Of a stretch of DNA of 36,591 bases, positions 27,618 to 36,591 are shown piece by piece (position 1 is the first letter of the stretch; every line of letters starts with the position of its first letter). Location of the stretch: NCBI RefSeq assembly GCF_004345675.1, contig NZ_SLWU01000024.1, positions 1-36,591 of the forward strand. Direction: 5' to 3'. The notes beneath the pieces were generated by a model that saw only the letters and a program-made list of their open reading frames with translations, did not search any database and had not been told where the DNA came from. The translations under genes and the position numbers were made by a program. The stretch is from Caldanaerobacter subterraneus. GTDB taxonomy: Bacteria; Bacillota; Thermoanaerobacteria; Thermoanaerobacterales; Thermoanaerobacteraceae.

Positions 27618-27651
27618 ACCTAACAATAAAATCAAAAAAGATTTTGTTTTA
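27618..27651 (-). terminator. possible weak terminator at the end of the exporter genes
   Basis: An A/T-only imperfect inverted repeat (AACAAAATC with GATTTTaTTGTT around a T-rich loop) lies just after the ABC stop codon. No GC pairs strengthen it beyond two positions. Confidence 0.3.
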
Positions 27652-29154
27652 CACCACAAATATTCCCTCTTCTCTTATTGGCTCATCCGCCTTATCCAGT
27701 TTCTCTATGTTGAATAAACTGTAAAAGTACCCTCTCTTCTCTATTAAATCGTCAAATTTCCCTTTCTCCACAATCCTTCCATCCCTTAATACTATTATCT
27801 CGTCATACCTTTTGAGTAGCTCACCCCACAATCTGTGTGTCACCACTATCGCCGTTATGTCCATATCCAGTATCGTCTTCTCTATCAAATACGCCGTCTC
27901 ATTGTCCAGTGCCGCTGTCGCCTCATCCAGAGCCAATATTGACGCATTTGTTATTACTGACCTCGCTATCGCTATCCTCTGCCTTTCCCCTCCCGATAAA
28001 AGTTTTCCCCCTTCTCCTACATCACTTAATATCCCCTCTGGCAATTTCTCTAATAACGGCCCTAATCCTGCTATCTTCGCCGCTCTTACTACTTCTTCAT
28101 CCGTGTATCTGTCATTAAATAGGGTTATGTTGTCTTTTACTGTCCCGTCAAATATGAATACATTCTGATGTAATAGGGTTATTATCTTGAATAAGTCTTT
28201 CTTGTCTATTCTTCTTAATTCTATCCCATCTAATTTTATTTCTCCTTCATAGTTTTCATATTGTTTTAACAATAACTTGAGTATTGTGGATTTCCCTGCT
28301 CCACTTGTCCCTACTAATGCGTACTTTCCTCCTTTTTTGATTGTAAAGTTTATATTATCCAAAGCTTTTGTCTCCCCTGTGTAGCTAAAAGATACGTTTT
28401 TAAATTCTATTGAGTCGTTAAAAGATTTTACTGGTATATAATCATTCCTCTCTTCCTTTTCCTGTAATACTTCATTTATCTTCTGTGATATGCTCTTTAA
28501 TGAGAGTATCCTGTTGAGATTTTGACCCATACTGTATATTGGCATAATTATGTTATTGGTAAGCTGTACACAGGCAATCATCGTTCCTAAAGTCATCTCT
28601 CCTTTTATGGTAAAGTATAAACCTACTGCAAATACAGAGAGGAAAATAAAGCTACTTAAAATTTCTGACATGGTGTCAGAGGTATTTAAAAGTACGCTGT
28701 ATTTAAGCTTTTTATCTTCCACATCTTCATTAACTTTTGAAAACTTCTCATGTACTTTATCCTCTATCCCGAAGCTCTTTATCACTTCAAGTCCTGTAAG
28801 AGTATCTTTAGATTCTATAGTAAAAAGTTCTAAGCTCTCAGAATAATCGTTTCTCATTTTAGCAATCTTATCATCAAAAATGCGAGGAATTATTACACTA
28901 AGAATTGCCATGAGTATTATCATCACAGTTATTTTGTAACTTAATATAAATAGAGAAATTAATGCAGCCACAAATCCTACTGCACTGCCTAAAAGCCTAA
29001 AGAAATTGTTAAAATAATCCTCTTCTACAATCTTTACATCATTTGAAATAATTGAAATGTACTTACCTGTATTAACTTCATTAAAATGTTCCACATCCTT
29101 TTTAATGATTGCTCTAAATAACCTGTCTTTTAGGTATATCAAAGTTTTTTTCAT
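27649..29154 (-). CDS. ABC exporter half-transporter, N-terminally truncated
   Basis: A 501-aa fused membrane/ATPase protein. The nucleotide-binding domain is complete: Walker A VGTSGAGKSTILKLLL, Q-loop LLHQNVFIF, signature LLSGGERQRIAIARS, Walker B ILALDEATAALD, H-loop VVTHRL. Its membrane domain starts at a point equal to about residue 80 of the paralogue at 29341-31068, so the first two helices are missing. There is no ribosome-binding site before the ATG. The exporter frame can be followed about ten codons further upstream (WLNRTTRFHY) before homology ends, as expected for a deletion. It is probably non-functional or works only in a complex; there is no C39 peptidase domain. Confidence 0.8.
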   Translation of the reverse strand: MKKTLIYLKDRLFRAIIKKDVEHFNEVNTGKYISIISNDVKIVEEDYFNNFFRLLGSAVGFVAALISLFILSYKITVMIILMAILSVIIPRIFDDKIAKMRNDYSESLELFTIESKDTLTGLEVIKSFGIEDKVHEKFSKVNEDVEDKKLKYSVLLNTSDTMSEILSSFIFLSVFAVGLYFTIKGEMTLGTMIACVQLTNNIIMPIYSMGQNLNRILSLKSISQKINEVLQEKEERNDYIPVKSFNDSIEFKNVSFSYTGETKALDNINFTIKKGGKYALVGTSGAGKSTILKLLLKQYENYEGEIKLDGIELRRIDKKDLFKIITLLHQNVFIFDGTVKDNITLFNDRYTDEEVVRAAKIAGLGPLLEKLPEGILSDVGEGGKLLSGGERQRIAIARSVITNASILALDEATAALDNETAYLIEKTILDMDITAIVVTHRLWGELLKRYDEIIVLRDGRIVEKGKFDDLIEKRGYFYSLFNIEKLDKADEPIREEGIFVV

Positions 29155-29340: not shown

Positions 29341-31068
29341 TCATACAGTTTCTTCTACAGTCTCAATCTCTTCTTTCTCATCAATCCCATAATTATACAT
29401 ATAATAGAAATACCCTCTCTTTTCTAATAGCTCATCTAATGTACCTCTTTCAATGATTTCCCCATCTCTCATTACAAATATTTCATCATACCTTTTAAGT
29501 ATCTCTGGGTCTAACTTATGGGTTACAGCAAGCACTGTCGCATCTAAATTTATAAGTGTCCTCTCTATATCGCTCGCCGTAACTTTGTCTAAAGCCGCCG
29601 TAGCTTCATCTATAAGCAGTATTTCAGCTTTCTTGATTAACGCTCTTGCAATTGCTATCCTCTGTCTCTCTCCTCCCGATAGTTCTACTTCCCCTTCCCC
29701 TACTATTGTATCGAGTCCTTTGGGGAGTTTCTCAACAACCTGAATTAAACCAGATTGTTTCAATGCCTCATTGAGTTCCTCTTCACTGCATTCACTATAC
29801 AGACAAATGTTATTCTTTAATGTGTCACCAAACATAAAGACATCCTGTTGTATGATACTAACTTTCCTGTAATAGGAGGCAGGGTCAAATTCTCTTATAT
29901 CTACTCCATCAATGAGAACTTGCCCCTCATAATCTGTAATGTGATTTAATAAAACTCTAAGCAGTGTGGTCTTCCCGCAACCGCTTTCTCCAACCAACGT
30001 ATATTTTTTGCCCTTATCAAGCTTTATGTTTATGTTTGACAAAGCATTCCTCTTGCCATCATAAGAAAAGGTTAGGTTTTTGATTTCTATGGAATTTCTA
30101 AATTCAAAAGATTTATCTCCCTGTGAGACTTCCTCTTTGCCTACCTCTATTATTTCTTTTTGGATTTTATCCGCTATTTTTTCAACAGATTTTATTTTTG
30201 TAGCATATACAGATGCAGAAATTAAAGGATTTACTATGTAGTTCATAAGCTGTACAGCAGCAATCATAGAACCTACTGTGATATAACCTCTCAAGACCAA
30301 ATATGTGGCTACGAGTATATTTACAAAAAACATTGCAAATCCTGACACGATAGATAAAGCTCCTTGAAATCCTTGAAATGCGTCAGATTTATACCCCGCC
30401 ATTTCTGCATCTTTATTGTCTTTTGATGCCATATTGAGAATTTTATTTTCTATGTTAAAGGCTTTTATTACTTCAAATCCCTGAGCCATCTCTTTTATCC
30501 TGTTGGTAAACCTCTCAAGCTTTTTAAGGTACTGCCCCTTTAGTTCCTGATTTATTTTTGTGAAAAGCTGAGGCACAATCACTGGAACCCAGCCAAAAAT
30601 GAAAATGACTATAGTGAGATAAACGTTTATTCGAAGTATTAGATATAAAGACACAATAAATAGTAAAACGTCTTCCATAATGTTAATCAAACTGGTGAGG
30701 TAATTAGTCTCTATCATCCTCACATCATTGCTAAGTAAAGATATCAATTCTGAACTTGTAATTTTTCTTCTTCTAGAGTTTATGAAGCTTTCTATAATGG
30801 ATTGTTTGTAGTCTATCAATACTTTCTTGTTAAAAGCTGCCGAAGCTGCCTTTGACAAGGTCTCAGCTGTAAATACTGCTATCAGAAAGCCTACTGAATA
30901 CCATATTAACGTAGAAATGCTGTAATTTAAATTTCCAACAGATGTGTCAACGATTATTTTAAAAAGTATTGCCTGCAGGGCTTTAAGGGCTGATACAAAA
31001 ATTATAAGTATAGCGTTTATCAGAATTAAAAGCTTATATTTTAAGATGTACTTCTTTATCGTCTCCAT
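29341..31068 (-). CDS. ABC exporter half-transporter (fused membrane and ATPase domains)
   Basis: A 575-aa type I exporter half. About six helices lie in residues 10-300. The ATPase domain has Walker A VGESGCGKTTLLRVLL, Q-loop IIQQDVFMFGD, signature ELSGGERQRIAIARALI, Walker B ILLIDEATAALD and H-loop AVTHKLD. There is no N-terminal C39 peptidase domain. GGAGG lies eight bases before the ATG. It belongs with the similar gene at 27649 (both end in a conserved RGYFY segment) and could form a heterodimer with it or a homodimer. It probably exports the modified peptide or provides self-immunity; this is inferred from the neighbouring RiPP genes. Confidence 0.88.
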   Translation of the reverse strand: METIKKYILKYKLLILINAILIIFVSALKALQAILFKIIVDTSVGNLNYSISTLIWYSVGFLIAVFTAETLSKAASAAFNKKVLIDYKQSIIESFINSRRRKITSSELISLLSNDVRMIETNYLTSLINIMEDVLLFIVSLYLILRINVYLTIVIFIFGWVPVIVPQLFTKINQELKGQYLKKLERFTNRIKEMAQGFEVIKAFNIENKILNMASKDNKDAEMAGYKSDAFQGFQGALSIVSGFAMFFVNILVATYLVLRGYITVGSMIAAVQLMNYIVNPLISASVYATKIKSVEKIADKIQKEIIEVGKEEVSQGDKSFEFRNSIEIKNLTFSYDGKRNALSNINIKLDKGKKYTLVGESGCGKTTLLRVLLNHITDYEGQVLIDGVDIREFDPASYYRKVSIIQQDVFMFGDTLKNNICLYSECSEEELNEALKQSGLIQVVEKLPKGLDTIVGEGEVELSGGERQRIAIARALIKKAEILLIDEATAALDKVTASDIERTLINLDATVLAVTHKLDPEILKRYDEIFVMRDGEIIERGTLDELLEKRGYFYYMYNYGIDEKEEIETVEETV

Positions 31069-31438: not shown

Positions 31439-33088
31439 TTACACCAAATATTCCACCTTTTTAGAAATTCTATTTAAATCTATCACTTCATCCGCTATAT
31501 TTAAAAACTCTTGGTTATGAGTAACAATTAAAATTATTTTTTCCTTCTTGAGTGCTGTTAGCATAGATTTTAATTTCTCAATACTAACAACATCTAAGGC
31601 AGACGTGGGCTCATCTAACACTATGACATCTGGATCTTTTAAAAATGTCCTGGCAATCGCTATCTTTAATTTTTCTCCTCCTGAAATGTTGCTGGAGGCT
31701 TCATTTAGTTTTGTATTCAATCCTTCATGAAATTTATCTATATCTACATTTAAATCTTTTAGCAGTTTATCAATAGTTTTATAATCGTAAACCTCCACCC
31801 CATATATTAAGTTATTTATAATTGTGTCATTAACTAATTTTGGTTCCTGTTCTGTGACTCCAATAATTTTCCTTCTTATGTAATACATGTCTAGTTCCTT
31901 AATTTCTATTGAATTGTAATATATCTCACCTGAATAGTAATTTACTAAAATCCCAAGAATTACATTAATGAGAGTACTTTTGCCGGCTCCATTATCACCT
32001 ACAATGCAGTATATTTTCCCTTTTTCAAATTCATAATTGAAATCGTGTATAATTTTTTTAGAATTGTCATAAGCAAAGGAAACATTTCTAAGTTCAATAG
32101 TCTCTATACCCTCTAATCTAATAGTACCATTTATCTCTTGGGGCTCATCCAATATTTGTCTTAATCTATCATAGGAAATTAAAGCATCCTGATATGACTT
32201 ACCTAAGTTTAAAAAGTATCCTACACTTCCTATCATCATTGAAAAATAACTACTAATTATCGTAAAATCTCCTATTGTCAAATTTCCATTTATTATTTCC
32301 ATTCCGCCAACAAAAAATATTATTACCCTTGCAATAGTAGTCACCATTGAATTGCTGCTATTAAAAAGATAAGAAACTTTTGTATATCTTAGTAATGAAT
32401 TAAACATTTTTTCAAATGCGCTATTTAATCTTTCCCTTTCTTCCTTAAAAGTCGCATTTAGTTTTATAACTTTTACATTTTGCAAATTATCATTCATTTT
32501 TGAAAAAAATTCGTTCTGTTTTTCTTTTAATTCATAGCCTCGTATATATAAAGGTTTTCTAAACACAAAGTAAAGCAATATATATAAGGGAATCAAAGCC
32601 ATTAATTCTAAAGTCAATTTGGCATTTATTCTCATGGAAATATAAGCCAAGAAAATAATAGTTAAAGCATTAGTAAGAATATCTAGCATATTGGCTAATA
32701 CAAAAGAAACTACAGTATTGCTGTCAAAGTTTATTCTTTGATTTAGATATGCACTGTCTACCCCTTTAAAGTAAAGAATAGGCAATTTAGTTACATGGTC
32801 CAATACGTAAAAGTTTAAGTCTGTCATTGATTTGGTCTGAATTTTAACATAGGTGTAGTTCATTACAAAAGAACTAATTATAGTGATTATTCCAATTAAT
32901 ACTATCTTTGCTGTAAAATCATAAATTACTTTAAAATCTTTACTCTGCAATAGAAGGTCAATATAATTACCTGTAATGTAAGGTACTATAATTGACATGA
33001 GCCATCCAATGATACTAAAAAATAGAAATACTATCAGGGAGCTTTTGTACTTAAATATGAATTTTTTAACAAAGTTAAATATTTTCAT
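31439..33088 (-). CDS. ABC exporter half-transporter next to the S41 protease
   Basis: About 549 aa, with six hydrophobic helices in the first 290 residues and a complete ATPase domain: Walker A VGDNGAGKSTLINVIL, signature NISGGEKLKIAIARTFL, Walker B VIVLDEPTSALD, H-loop VTHNQ. It is more diverged than the other two ABC proteins (EPTSALD and GGEKLK instead of EATAALD and GGERQR), so it probably has a different partner or cargo. There is no C39 domain. The frame includes a TTG at 33097, but the ATG at 33088 is preferred. It starts about 20 bases after the S41 protease stop codon, so the two are co-transcribed. The likely role is export of the processed peptide. Confidence 0.88.
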   Translation of the reverse strand: MKIFNFVKKFIFKYKSSLIVFLFFSIIGWLMSIIVPYITGNYIDLLLQSKDFKVIYDFTAKIVLIGIITIISSFVMNYTYVKIQTKSMTDLNFYVLDHVTKLPILYFKGVDSAYLNQRINFDSNTVVSFVLANMLDILTNALTIIFLAYISMRINAKLTLELMALIPLYILLYFVFRKPLYIRGYELKEKQNEFFSKMNDNLQNVKVIKLNATFKEERERLNSAFEKMFNSLLRYTKVSYLFNSSNSMVTTIARVIIFFVGGMEIINGNLTIGDFTIISSYFSMMIGSVGYFLNLGKSYQDALISYDRLRQILDEPQEINGTIRLEGIETIELRNVSFAYDNSKKIIHDFNYEFEKGKIYCIVGDNGAGKSTLINVILGILVNYYSGEIYYNSIEIKELDMYYIRRKIIGVTEQEPKLVNDTIINNLIYGVEVYDYKTIDKLLKDLNVDIDKFHEGLNTKLNEASSNISGGEKLKIAIARTFLKDPDVIVLDEPTSALDVVSIEKLKSMLTALKKEKIILIVTHNQEFLNIADEVIDLNRISKKVEYLV

Positions 33089-33111
33089 ATTGATCAACTC
33101 TCTTGTATTTT

Positions 33112-34512
33112 TTAGAAATTGCTTTTTTCTTTTCCTAAAGATTTAATCAATTCGACTGTCTTTTGCTTCAATATTTCTGCTCTTACTTCTGGATAGCCAG
33201 CATTTGTATCTGGAACGTCTAATTCTATGTCTGGTTTCACACCTTCTATAAAAAATGAACCCCCGTCTCGGTTTAAAATTGTGCCGGCTTCAAATCTCAC
33301 AATCAATCCACTGTTAGGAAGCCTCATATATGAAGTAAGTGAACCATCTCCTGAAGTACTTCTTCCTATCAATGTAGCAAAACCTGTTTCTTTACAAAAC
33401 TTGGCAAATTCTGTGGCTGCAGAAAAAGTTCCTCTGTCTATTATTAGAAATATCTTTCCTTTAAAATTTATATATTCATTTGATTTGAAAAACTTTTCTA
33501 TGTAGTTTTCTTTTTGTTTAGATAGGTTTTCTTTAAATTCACAGATTGTAAAATCTTTTTTCATCTCTTCTGAAAGTTTATCGTATATAGGACTCTCTCT
33601 GAATTTATTTTCATCATAAAATATTACATACCTCTCAAAAATTTTTTTCGTATATTTCCCCTTTCGCGATAAAGAAAAATATGTATTTTTATCCTTATTT
33701 TCTAAATATTTTAATTTTAAATATTCCAAACCTCTTTCTCCTATCAGTGGAGCTACTATAGCATCTAACCAGTATTCTGAAGAACCTCCTACATTTCCAC
33801 TAATGTCTATAATTAAATAAGGATAATCTTTGATACTTTTTAAAAAGTTGTATATTTCTTTTTTCTCTTCCTGATAATTTTTACTGTTCTGATCTTTATC
33901 TATCAAAAAAGAATTAACTCTTAAATAGGCTATTTTATCCTCTTCTAAAATTTCTGTTTTTATATTTTTCTGTCCTCTCCTCATTTGAACAAAAAAGCTA
34001 CTATTATAACTGGAATTTACACTTCCTAGCAATTCACTCCATTTTTCATAATTTTTCTTGGAATCTTTAAATATTTTTATAAAAGGCTTAAATTCAATAG
34101 AATCTCTCATCGTTTCATCTTCAATTAATTTTAAAATGTAATTAAAATAGCTGGGACTTGCTACATAAAGGTGTCCATCATGCAATTTCCCTAAAATTTC
34201 ATTTAATTTATTATAAAACTCAATGTTATTCCTTGTATTTTTTATCTCTTCTATAAACTCTTCCTTATGGGCTAGCCAGTCGTAGCCGTACATTTTTTTT
34301 ACTTCATAAAAATGTGCGTAATTGTCTTTTAAAATGTTATACATATACTCAAAATCTTCTATCTTTTCTTTCTCTGTTAAATCTTTTAATTCTATTGATG
34401 CAAATAGAGTGTTTGAAGTATATATCCCAGCAAAAAATCCTGTTGAAAATGCCATTAAAAACAGTGATATAAAAACAAAGATTGATAATCCCTTCTTCAA
34501 AACTAACCACAT
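33112..34512 (-). CDS. membrane-anchored S41-family protease
   Basis: A 466-aa protein. One N-terminal hydrophobic helix (about residues 8-31) should anchor it with the rest outside the cell. An S41 helical domain follows, ending in KLHDGHLYV, whose His114 is the likely general base in tricorn-type members. The core has DGNVGG-like DISGNVGGSSEYW and the nucleophile region DRGTFSAATEFAKF (Ser364). The Lys expected in CtpA-type enzymes is not found (GRSTSGDGS instead), so a Ser-His mechanism is more likely. No PDZ domain is evident. GAGGAG directly abuts the ATG, an unusual spacing; a TTG four codons in is an alternative. It lies between the precursor peptide and an ABC exporter, which suggests leader removal. 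Confidence 0.85.
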   Translation of the reverse strand: MWLVLKKGLSIFVFISLFLMAFSTGFFAGIYTSNTLFASIELKDLTEKEKIEDFEYMYNILKDNYAHFYEVKKMYGYDWLAHKEEFIEEIKNTRNNIEFYNKLNEILGKLHDGHLYVASPSYFNYILKLIEDETMRDSIEFKPFIKIFKDSKKNYEKWSELLGSVNSSYNSSFFVQMRRGQKNIKTEILEEDKIAYLRVNSFLIDKDQNSKNYQEEKKEIYNFLKSIKDYPYLIIDISGNVGGSSEYWLDAIVAPLIGERGLEYLKLKYLENKDKNTYFSLSRKGKYTKKIFERYVIFYDENKFRESPIYDKLSEEMKKDFTICEFKENLSKQKENYIEKFFKSNEYINFKGKIFLIIDRGTFSAATEFAKFCKETGFATLIGRSTSGDGSLTSYMRLPNSGLIVRFEAGTILNRDGGSFFIEGVKPDIELDVPDTNAGYPEVRAEILKQKTVELIKSLGKEKSNF

Positions 34513-34540
34513 CTCCTCACGTATTATTTAGGAAATAACG

Positions 34541-34576
34541 CTCGCTAGTCTGATAGCATAGTATTAGACTAGCGAG
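34541..34576. repeat. hairpin between precursor gene and protease gene
   Basis: Perfect 11-bp arms CTCGCTAGTCT (34541-34551) and AGACTAGCGAG (34566-34576) with a 14-base loop. On the minus strand the 3' side continues GTTATTTCC, a poor U-tract. It could act as a partial terminator or an RNA end-protecting element that raises precursor transcript over the protease and exporter. Confidence 0.75.
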
Positions 34577-34594
34577 TCCAGAAAATTATATCTG

Positions 34595-34783
34595 CTATTT
34601 TATATATGGTTCCATTCTACTGCCACCTCTACATAAACATGTCCAATCTCCACAATAGGAAGCACAAAGCGTTGAATTATCTCTACATACGCATATTTCT
34701 GGTATCTCAACGTTGCAGATCTTAATAAAACAATCACATATACTGTTACTCATAGAATTATATCCTTCTATTAAATATTCCAT
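34595..34783 (-). CDS. cysteine-rich RiPP precursor peptide
   Basis: A 62-aa peptide (52 aa if translation starts at Met11). Its first 15 residues have no Cys. The rest holds nine cysteines at 16, 18, 23, 31, 33, 40, 44, 49 and 51: three CXC pairs (CDC, CVC, CLC) and three single Cys. The tail GGSRMEPYIK is Cys-free. Such a Cys-rich core directly downstream of a SPASM radical SAM enzyme is the classic layout of sactipeptide and ranthipeptide precursors. AGGAGG lies only two bases before the first ATG, while AAGGA lies nine bases before Met11 (34753), so the start is uncertain. The arrangement recalls the CLI_3235-type Cys-rich bacteriocin precursors, but I cannot confirm membership. Confidence 0.8.
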   Translation of the reverse strand: MEYLIEGYNSMSNSICDCFIKICNVEIPEICVCRDNSTLCASYCGDWTCLCRGGSRMEPYIK

Positions 34784-34815
34784 TTCCTCCTACCCCCTTT
34801 CTTTTTATTTTTATA

Positions 34816-34835
34816 TAGAATGTGCGCACATTCTA
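34816..34835. promoter_or_regulatory. 20-bp perfect palindrome upstream of the precursor gene
   Basis: TAGAATGTGCGCACATTCTA is a perfect 20-bp dyad with no spacer, 33 bases before the precursor start codon. On the minus strand a TTGTGA lies just upstream and TATATA/TATAAA just downstream, so it may sit inside a promoter spacer as an operator. No U-run follows, so a terminator is unlikely. Confidence 0.6.
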
Positions 34836-34874
34836 ATCACAATTAAAATGTCTGAAATATACACTCAAATTGGT

Positions 34875-36200
34875 TTAAACCTTGTCTGGCTTTTTCTCTA
34901 ATAGCTCTTTTGCTATATCCTTCAAATATTCTTCTAAAACATATTTATAATCTCCACATCTTTCTGTCACTCTCTCTATTCTTCTCCTTGGACATCCTCC
35001 CATACAAATTGGCAGTAGCTTGCAATCAGTACACATCTCGTCTATCGTAGGGTCATAAAGAAGATATTCCATGAACTTATCAACATTCAAAGAAATTAAG
35101 GACGTATCGTTTAATATATTTCCTACCCTATACTCTTCCATACCTATATCAGACCAGCACTTGTATATGTATCCCTCCGGGTCTATCACCATTGAATTTA
35201 CCCTGTCTGCTCCACAAAAATTGTATTTTAAATAGGGATATTTATGCATTAAATTATTCGAAAAACCTCTTTCTTTTAACACTTTTTCAAACATATAAGT
35301 AACCTTAGAATATTCATGCATAGATAGGCACTTATTTGGTACATAACAATCATTTGTAGGTTCTACATATCCCAAATAAACACTAAGTTTATTTTTCAAT
35401 CCTCTTCTTTCCAACCCATCTAATATTTCATTAACTCTGTTTACGTTTTCTTTGTCTACGTTTATCCTTAAAGAAATATTTGGCATTATATCAATATTTT
35501 CTTCTATGTTAACTAGTATCTTTTCAAAAGTTCCCTGTCCACTTTTTAAAGGACGTCTTTTATCATGTACATCCTGGGGACCATCCAATGTTATTTGTAT
35601 AAATGATAATCGCAAGTTCTTAAATTGTTCTACTATTTCCCTTGTCAAGTTATACCCGTTTGTTATAATAGATGCACCATATATAACTTCATTTTCATCA
35701 CAGAGTTTTATAATTTTTTCTGACATATCTTTAACAATATCAAAAGCCAACAGCAGTTCTCCTCCATACCAAACAATATTTACACTCTGCAAATACTTTA
35801 TCTGCCGCTTTATATATTCAACTATTTTATCTTGTACTTCTTCACTCATAAATACATTTTTCTGACTATCCTTTTCATAACAATATACACAGGCAAAATT
35901 ACACCCTAGTGTAGGTGCAATAGTTAAACCTAAATTTTTGTCATTAAATCTACTCCGCCAGAGATTAAAACGTAACAACTGGAGTTCATCAACATTGTCA
36001 TCTATGATAAATTGCCCTTTTTTCAAGTCTTCTATTAATTTATTGTCATCAATTGAAATGCCTTTTTCTATATAATTCTTATATTTGTCGTGATTCTTTT
36101 TTTCCATTAAGGCTAAAGCTCCTGTTCTTGAATTATAAGCTACTATTTTCTCCGGCTCTTCAGGAAAGTCAAAGAAAAAGTTATATCTAGACGGTTTCAT
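34875..36200 (-). CDS. radical SAM/SPASM peptide maturase
   Basis: A 441-aa enzyme that probably installs thioether links in the adjacent Cys-rich peptide. The radical SAM cluster site is CNFACVYC (C100, C104, C107). The barrel carries WYGGELLLA (GGE motif) and the ITLDGPQDVHDKRRP region. A full SPASM domain follows: C329, C348, then CTDCKLLPICMGGC (C390, C393, C399, C403) and C415, enough for two auxiliary [4Fe-4S] clusters. The first 90 residues (KPSRYNFFF, then AYNSRTGALALME) resemble the precursor-binding N-terminus of peptide maturases of this type. GGGGAG lies seven bases before the ATG. The precursor gene starts 91 bases downstream. Confidence 0.92.
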   Translation of the reverse strand: MKPSRYNFFFDFPEEPEKIVAYNSRTGALALMEKKNHDKYKNYIEKGISIDDNKLIEDLKKGQFIIDDNVDELQLLRFNLWRSRFNDKNLGLTIAPTLGCNFACVYCYEKDSQKNVFMSEEVQDKIVEYIKRQIKYLQSVNIVWYGGELLLAFDIVKDMSEKIIKLCDENEVIYGASIITNGYNLTREIVEQFKNLRLSFIQITLDGPQDVHDKRRPLKSGQGTFEKILVNIEENIDIMPNISLRINVDKENVNRVNEILDGLERRGLKNKLSVYLGYVEPTNDCYVPNKCLSMHEYSKVTYMFEKVLKERGFSNNLMHKYPYLKYNFCGADRVNSMVIDPEGYIYKCWSDIGMEEYRVGNILNDTSLISLNVDKFMEYLLYDPTIDEMCTDCKLLPICMGGCPRRRIERVTERCGDYKYVLEEYLKDIAKELLEKKPDKV

Positions 36201-36233
36201 TTTCTTTCTCCCCTTAAAGAATTTTTACGCTGA

Positions 36234-36275
36234 GCCCATCTCAAAAACTTTTTACATAAAAGTTTTAAGATGTGC
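36234..36275. repeat. imperfect long inverted repeat before the maturase gene
   Basis: Arms 36234-36252 and 36258-36275 pair as GC(C/A)CATCT and AAAACTTTT/AAAAGTTTT with a five-base loop and a small bulge. It lies between the 48-aa peptide ORF and the maturase. No U-run follows on the minus strand, so it is more likely an attenuator, an RNA-processing hairpin or an insertion-sequence end than a full terminator. Confidence 0.55.
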
Positions 36276-36314
36276 CTTTGGCCTGCTTGAAATCTATCTT
36301 GGCTTTGCATCTTT

Positions 36315-36461
36315 TTACTTATCTACAACTACTGAATGCCAATCTATTATATCCTTTTCTCCCATTGGTCCTATACTTTTGACATTTCCTATCACATTAA
36401 AACACCATGAAGACAGTAAAAGAGTAACTATGGAAAAAACAATTAATAATTTTTTCTTCAT
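36315..36461 (-). CDS. 48-aa exported small peptide heading the RiPP operon
   Basis: A short ORF with very good expression signals: AAGGAGG four bases before the ATG and a near-consensus promoter 43 bases further up. It starts MKKKLLIVFSIVTLLLSS, a typical positively charged, hydrophobic signal or anchor segment. It ends in a short polar tail containing SIGPMGEKDIIDW and VVVDK. It has one cysteine at residue 20, but the context does not fit a lipobox. Length, signal and position resemble exported pro-pheromones of RRNPP-type quorum sensing (Phr, PapR). It could equally be a small membrane or immunity peptide. No family is recognised. Confidence 0.6.
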   Translation of the reverse strand: MKKKLLIVFSIVTLLLSSWCFNVIGNVKSIGPMGEKDIIDWHSVVVDK

Positions 36462-36503
36462 GCCCCCTCCTTGCCTCCCTTTACTTTTCCTTCTCCTACC
36501 TAT

Positions 36504-36532
36504 ATAATATATGGTAAGTTAAACAATTTCAA
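36504..36532 (-). promoter_or_regulatory. promoter of the RiPP operon
   Basis: Minus strand TTGAAA (36532-36527), 17-base spacer, TATTAT (36509-36504), predicted start near 36497. It should drive the 48-aa peptide and, by read-through, the maturase and precursor genes. Confidence 0.75.
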
Positions 36533-36591
36533 CCCGAATTGATTCTGGGTGGTGTGTAAAAAAATGGATGGATTCTATTATGACTTAGAGG

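Follow-up and report, generated by a model that had tools for sequence, protein, structure and literature searches.

A probable pheromone-controlled radical SAM peptide operon with an S41 protease in Caldanaerobacter subterraneus

The window described here, the whole of contig C24 (36,591 nucleotides) in a 79-contig genome of Caldanaerobacter subterraneus, carries on its minus strand, in this order, genes for a 48-aa peptide, a 441-aa radical S-adenosylmethionine (rSAM) enzyme with a SPASM domain, a 62-aa peptide with nine cysteines, a 466-aa S41-type protease and a 552-aa ATP-binding cassette (ABC) exporter, ABC1. We consider it likely that these genes form a pheromone-controlled operon for a ribosomally synthesized and post-translationally modified peptide (RiPP), with the S41 protease most likely serving self-immunity. 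The genes are conserved as a set, the gene divergent from them encodes a regulator of the PlcR type, and precursor and S41 genes have been exchanged between loci as a unit. A preliminary description of this DNA had named the same five parts, and open reading frame (ORF) analysis with Pfam and NCBIfam searches found all of them at the same place, in the same order and on the same strand. It had also proposed that they make up one rSAM RiPP locus, to be checked by their co-conservation, and they do recur together in several Thermoanaerobacter loci. The locus was called complete, which is right for the parts listed but overlooks the divergent regulator, just outside the span described and cut by the end of the contig. 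The features of the locus are as follows.

36552 to 36591, plus strand: start of the divergent regulator gene (PlcR-like, with helix-turn-helix (HTH) and tetratricopeptide repeat (TPR) domains), beginning at GTG 36552 or ATG 36564 and ending at the contig edge
36533 to 36549, either strand: imperfect inverted repeat CCCGAATTGATTCTGGG, between the divergent genes, adjoining the -35 box and conserved across pheromone loci
36504 to 36532, minus strand: predicted promoter TTGAAA-17-TATTAT of the pheromone gene and operon, from a promoter scan
36315 to 36461, minus strand: putative 48-aa pheromone precursor, with a signal-like N-terminal segment and a C-terminal GPMGEKDIIDWHS region
34875 to 36200, minus strand: rSAM/SPASM maturase, 441 aa, identified by Pfam and NCBIfam matches
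34816 to 34835, either strand: perfect 20-bp palindrome TAGAATGTGCGCACATTCTA, 5' of the precursor gene
34595 to 34783, minus strand: 62-aa Cys-rich precursor with leader MEYLIEGYN, nine cysteines and tail RMEPYIK, with a strong Shine-Dalgarno sequence in front
34541 to 34576, minus strand: hairpin in the gap between precursor and protease, a strong fold without a subsequent U run
33112 to 34512, minus strand: S41-type protease, allele b, membrane-anchored and extracytoplasmic (Pfam)
31439 to 33097, minus strand: ABC1, a half-size exporter without a C39 domain (Pfam), whose homologue adjoins the maturase elsewhere

From these genes we infer a course of pheromone processing, activation, cross-linking, export and immunity. 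The 48-aa peptide would be exported, trimmed to a short pheromone and re-imported, and its binding by the divergent PlcR-like regulator would activate the promoter at 36532-36504. The SPASM enzyme would then put Cys-derived thioether cross-links into the MEYLIEGYN-led precursor, and ABC1 would export the modified peptide. The S41 protease, anchored outside the membrane, would most likely degrade or clip the mature peptide at the surface of the producer.

The 48-aa peptide is most readily understood as the RRNPP-type pheromone of a quorum-sensing pair, because most of its homologues face a divergent regulator that is nearest to PlcR in both profile and fold. Homologues of the peptide occur at 21 places, in eight of ten genomes of the genus, and at 17 or more of these places a divergent regulator gene lies about 90 bp away. 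This pairing replaces the earlier view of the peptide as an unexplained RiPP component at the head of the operon. Since the window copy of the regulator is incomplete, domain, profile and fold tests were done on homologues of the type found in genomes G005, G009 and G012. The domains are HTH_3 and TPR_12, with a sub-threshold match to RNPP_C. A profile of 11 regulators matched PlcR over its full length (E 8e-8), and the predicted regulator fold (predicted local distance difference test, pLDDT, 88) returned PlcR as its top five Foldseek matches, then ComR and Rgg2. Both features of the RRNPP family are thus present, namely an N-terminal HTH with a C-terminal TPR domain and an adjacent gene for a short secreted propeptide. 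The N-terminus of the pheromone peptides is signal-like, and toward the C-terminus they share a core, for instance GPMGEKDIIDWHS or APLGEEDLIRWHS. The core is kept while its flanks vary, and a D..xWH-like core is found again in the distant genomes G091 and G263.

The start of the window regulator reads MVCKKMDGFYYDLE, the same as the start of L031:2375-3334. Residues 99-319 of a regulator are encoded on contig C26, in a fragment 93% identical to the G005 homologue, and in G011 (L080) and G012 (L071) an unbroken stretch at the same site holds the C26-type flank, the regulator and window-type genes. On this identity and contiguity, C26 almost certainly holds the remainder of the window regulator. 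No relative of the regulator was found among viral contigs, and a phage origin was rejected on this ground. The consensus-like promoter of the preliminary description is borne out: TTGAAA-17-TATTAT at 36532-36504 keeps its hexamers and spacing, as does the inverted repeat beside it, in all aligned intergenic regions of homologous loci. The repeat is perfect as GCCGATTCAAATCGGC in type B paralogues, and the copy at 36533-36549 is a probable candidate for the regulator's operator.

Related pheromone pairs stand before a variety of genes. At type B and C loci (L066, L073-L077), many pairs precede genes for small secreted proteins or ABC transporters and not rSAM genes. Behind pheromones of the same type as that in the window lie other candidate RaS-RiPP genes: a precursor-like MSKITFSSVSPMDWCFGLGGCGVVKIN and a 450-aa rSAM enzyme in G012 (L071:4794-6452), and MQKITFSSVTPMGWCLGFFGSGVIDK in G007 (L069:7412-7537). 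The slot 3' of the pheromone switch seems to take different RiPP cassettes.

We counted seven cassette loci in five species-level genomes. The genome of the window has a second copy on contig C12, with a frameshifted maturase, and related cassettes occur in G005, G009, G010 (two loci and fragments) and G011. In each locus that retains the 3' end of the maturase gene, the order is precursor, then S41, then ABC1 where not deleted. Many copies are decayed; the maturase, precursor, adjacent S41 and ABC1 are intact in the window and in G005. Ratios of nonsynonymous to synonymous substitution (dN/dS) between loci are about 0.10 for intact maturases, 0.17-0.39 for S41 and 0.10 for ABC1. These low ratios argue that the three are real genes rather than chance ORFs, and that they are, or were until recently, under selection.

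A homologue of the precursor is present in all seven loci with a maturase 3' end, with a conserved leader, MEYL(I/V)(E/Q)G in consensus, and a conserved EPY-type tail, which likewise speaks against a chance ORF. The preliminary description was right about the precursor ORF, but the nine cysteines that it emphasized are found in only two of the seven loci, the range being 5-9. Two precursor types can be distinguished: the nine-Cys type, in the window and on C12, and a second type with 5-7 cysteines that ends in CxCWGPYCWGQVCRP or similar. The core has been swapped between loci whose maturases are still about 94% identical. Compared with its counterparts at other loci, the window maturase has a dS of 0.2-0.3, whereas synonymous divergence of the precursor has reached saturation or could not be computed, a comparison that is rough for such short sequences. 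The precursor had no Pfam or NCBIfam match, and its assignment to a known family was therefore rejected. The constancy of the maturase's partner, a point on which the preliminary description had staked its reading, proved mixed: a homologous precursor ORF is never missing, although it varies in Cys pattern and core, and distant maturase relatives have other Cys-rich precursors.

In the maturase the CX3CX2C motif takes the form CNFACVYC, and the cysteines of the SPASM domain are present as well (Pfam Radical_SAM E 5e-20, SPASM E 1e-4; TIGR04085 SPASM 67 bits). An rSAM enzyme with this motif and a SPASM domain, and an adjacent precursor with leader and variable core (7/7 loci), are the marks of radical SAM RiPP (RaS-RiPP) systems. 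The best NCBIfam model was TIGR04334 (Clo7bot), at 387 bits under a 600-bit cut-off, and the precursor is not of the Clo7bot type. By these scores the maturase appears Clo7bot-like, yet is not a member by the curated cut-off. Among solved structures, CteB (5wgg, E 1.7e-17) ranked well before SkfB (E 4.6e-6). The maturase scored 141 bits against the PapB model and 90 bits against the SCIFF model, whose cut-off is 425, and no sactisynthase model was among its top 25 NCBIfam matches. As far as sequence goes, it leans to the ranthipeptide side, in which the thioether runs from the Cys sulfur to a beta or gamma carbon, rather than to that of the sactipeptides, in which it reaches an alpha carbon.

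The S41 protease (Pfam E 1e-30), membrane-anchored and extracytoplasmic, has invariant Ser364, His111 and His114. At position +25, where S41 enzymes with a Ser-Lys dyad have Lys, it has Asp. Three alleles, a, b and c, are 45-55% identical to one another. In five of five loci, the gene next after a precursor of the second type is S41 a. In several loci S41 b lies 3' of a, and on C12 the order is c, a, b, with the 3' end of a type II precursor and its hairpin between c and a. Given this remnant, the simplest reading is that a new precursor and S41 were inserted before an older set, that the old precursor was destroyed and that the old S41 was left. On contig C20 of G010, S41 b is intact (96%, dN/dS 0.24-0.39) and adjoins a RaS cassette of another kind. 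G286 has a homologue of the regulator (37%) that diverges from genes for an S41 protease and an ABC exporter, and no maturase is visible there. No S41 gene lies beside the cassette in L102, L104 or L109.

The S41 protease had been described as a leader protease. This is doubtful: it is missing beside three distant cassettes, it is exchanged with the precursor, old copies outlast their precursors, and it occurs at a locus without maturase. For these reasons it is probably not a standard leader protease. The stack of alleles, the orphan S41, the G286 locus and the S41-free loci lead us to favour a role in self-immunity over leader removal, in which S41 would act on the peptide at the producer surface; the nisin-resistance S41 protease NSR is a precedent for such a role. 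It is a serious possibility, if somewhat short of an even chance, that precursor and S41 form a toxin-immunity-like pair that is exchanged whole while the maturase and the pheromone switch in front of it stay constant, the older S41 genes being stacked downstream as orphan immunity. If true, this would be a case of proteolytic self-immunity within a radical SAM RiPP operon.

Several observations weigh against our overall reading of the locus. The nine-Cys precursor is followed by S41 b in the window and by S41 c on C12, and the exchanges that speak for a precursor-S41 pairing include few independent events. Broken copies of orphan S41 b occur in G005, on contig C11 of G010 and in G011. The cassette is known from only seven loci in five species-level genomes, and most are damaged. 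The S41 model is poor (pLDDT 63.5), so that its second Foldseek match, the nisin-resistance protease NSR (4y68), is weak; the quality of the model was also too low for placing the active site. A sequence search returned no match between NSR and S41 even at E 10.

An alternative that we regard as unlikely, though worth weighing, is that S41 belongs to the same pheromone-controlled operon as a protease that processes the leader or the core of the peptide after export, its variation tracking the precursor's cleavage site. S41 directly follows the precursor in every Thermoanaerobacter locus that has both genes, ABC1 lacks the C39 peptidase, and S41 type covaries with precursor type, as a substrate-specific protease would give. 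Against this stand three distant systems of maturase, precursor and ABC1 with no S41 alongside, and a leader, MEYLIEGYN, that is nearly constant though the neighbouring S41 proteins are only 45-52% alike; leader cleavage alone needs no different proteases. Nor does processing fit old S41 copies that outlast their precursor, or a maturase-free locus of S41, regulator and exporter.

Two further explanations concern the Cys-rich product and the 48-aa peptide. The Cys-rich product might be a metal-binding, disulfide-rich or signalling peptide, and S41 a general surface protease swept along by recombination. The free variation of Cys number (5-9) and spacing would suit such a product, and related S41 lipoproteins, some in tandem, occur without RiPP genes (L146, L147). 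We consider this improbable, since a SPASM maturase of the Clo7bot/CteB group, under purifying selection, always adjoins the ORF and the precursor is exchanged with its neighbour gene in the manner of bacteriocin-immunity pairs. Less probable again is that the 48-aa peptide is a small membrane or leader peptide, for example in translational control, and that the regulator answers another signal. The mature pheromone sequence and its binding by the regulator are predictions, and the distant counterparts start with GTG or TTG and have only a short common core. However, peptide and regulator recur divergently, in many copies and with different downstream genes, which is the RRNPP layout, and it is the C-terminal core that is kept between variable flanks.

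Outside the genus, we searched about 400 genomes of the phylum for the maturase. In G091 (L102), a divergent regulator (40%) and a GTG-started pheromone-like ORF accompany a maturase (49%), two Cys-rich precursors beginning MTYLIEGN and an ABC1 (54%). G263 (L109) has a regulator (38%), a TTG-started pheromone-like ORF ending in EKESDIYEWHMYDEFI, an interrupted maturase (47%), a precursor beginning MKYLINGS and an ABC1 (41%). About 1.8 kb of other DNA interrupts this maturase gene (L109:4461-6301) at residue 275; no intron or insertion element was identified there. In G087 (L104), where there is no regulator, a maturase (47%) and an ABC1 (56%) are accompanied by three precursors. ABC1, whose only meaningful Pfam matches are ABC_membrane and ABC_tran, with no C39, has a homologue adjoining the maturase in Thermoanaerobacter and in L102, L104, L109 and L098. 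These arrangements suggest a core system made up of maturase, precursor and ABC1, to which the pheromone pair is often joined, and that S41 is a Thermoanaerobacter addition, because none lies beside the cassette in G091, G263 or G087. Two distant genomes (L146:7019-9545, L147:6238-8804) have S41 lipoprotein genes in tandem, 28-33% identical to that of the window, with no RiPP genes nearby.

Two noncoding elements flank the precursor gene. The 16-bp core of the palindrome at 34816-34835 occurs at seven places within the ten genomes of the genus, five of which carry it, each time at a precursor locus; the reversed control sequence was found nowhere. In L025 a symmetrical compensating change (TGGAATG..CATTCCA) leaves the palindrome intact. 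It may be an operator or a short RNA hairpin. At the palindrome, other loci can be read as having an internal sigma-70 candidate, TTGATT-17-TATATA, whereas the window reads GTGATT there and the promoter scan gave no such site. The hairpin between precursor and S41 (z -4.2 for the window copy and -7 to -8 elsewhere) was present in each locus tested, its structure kept and its sequence differing between precursor types. It probably sets the ratio of precursor to downstream expression. In the gap between pheromone and maturase, examined in six loci, no Rfam family matched at the gathering score, so no riboswitch or other known RNA was found, and a lax search gave only a chance-level match. A 37-aa ORF at 36310-36197 was rejected as a gene: it belongs to no family and is 40-81% conserved within homologous DNA only.

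Downstream of ABC1 in the window lie ABC2, ABC3 and then an S9 peptidase gene.

29341 to 31068, minus strand: ABC2 exporter, a loosely linked neighbour that is not cassette-specific
27649 to 29154, in the window: ABC3, a probable truncated pseudogene that is 76 residues short at the N-terminus compared with a 577-aa homologue in L145

ABC2 and ABC3 were rejected as specific parts of the cassette because both are also found away from this maturase; copies of ABC2 that are 90-95% identical lie at L070, L071 and L077, which do not have it. The S9 peptidase (27426-25426) was rejected as a processing enzyme, as it belongs to the chromosomal flank and is present too in G012, where this maturase is absent. 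Elsewhere, 5' of the G005 cassette (L031:13151-17890), are genes for a PqqD-like protein, a second SPASM enzyme, ABC transporters and a B12-binding radical SAM protein, possibly another RiPP cluster. On a contig binned as Thermococcus (L023:2209-4114), a Cys-every-fifth precursor (CefA, NF038108, 51 bits) lies beside a relative of the maturase, reflecting either misbinning or transfer.

The locus resembles several known systems in part. Like Clo7bot (TIGR04334; for example, the Paraclostridium bifermentans plasmid NZ_CP079738), it combines a SPASM enzyme and an ABC exporter with short, Cys-rich precursors whose leader is conserved. The Clo7bot leader is MKFIKKPARKFEEG rather than MEYLIEGYN, that locus has seven or more precursors compared to one here, and neither an S41 protease nor a PlcR-like pheromone pair is annotated in it. 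CteB, the SCIFF maturase that makes a ranthipeptide, is the nearest solved relative, but the precursor sequences are unrelated and the score is below the SCIFF cut-off. Pheromone-controlled RaS-RiPPs are known in streptococci (reviewed in PMC13361665), where the Rgg/SHP systems for streptide, tryglysin and streptosactin likewise place an RRNPP regulator and its own pheromone gene before an rSAM RiPP operon. Here, by comparison, the regulator is PlcR-like, the hosts are thermophilic clostridia, the maturase and precursor families are others, and an S41 protease is present. The regulator resembles that of PlcR-PapR in the Bacillus cereus group in profile, fold and its adjacent secreted propeptide gene; it differs in having 21% identity to PlcR and in being divergent to the pheromone gene, before a RiPP operon. 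NSR, an S41 nisin-resistance protease, is membrane-bound, uses Ser and His, and inactivates nisin at the membrane (PMC4698656; PMC9958725). The window protease appears comparable, as a predicted membrane-anchored, extracytoplasmic S41 protein with Ser and His available and apparently without a Ser-Lys dyad. It reads TFSAATE in place of the NSR motif TASSAEM, and NSR is a resistance gene outside RaS-RiPP operons. Our literature search, which left most subscription journals outside its coverage, found no paper joining RRNPP with Thermoanaerobacter or an S41 family peptidase with RaS-RiPPs.

This is a real and coherent locus, in which a putative pheromone pair and a probable immunity protease take the place of an unexplained head peptide and a leader protease. 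It broadens the linkage between RRNPP regulation and radical SAM peptides to a PlcR-like pair, a different maturase family, thermophilic clostridia and two distant genomes. Two pairings can be put to the test here, that of pheromone and regulator and that of precursor and S41. The stacked S41 genes, together with the precursor remnant between them, would be a record of peptide exchange.

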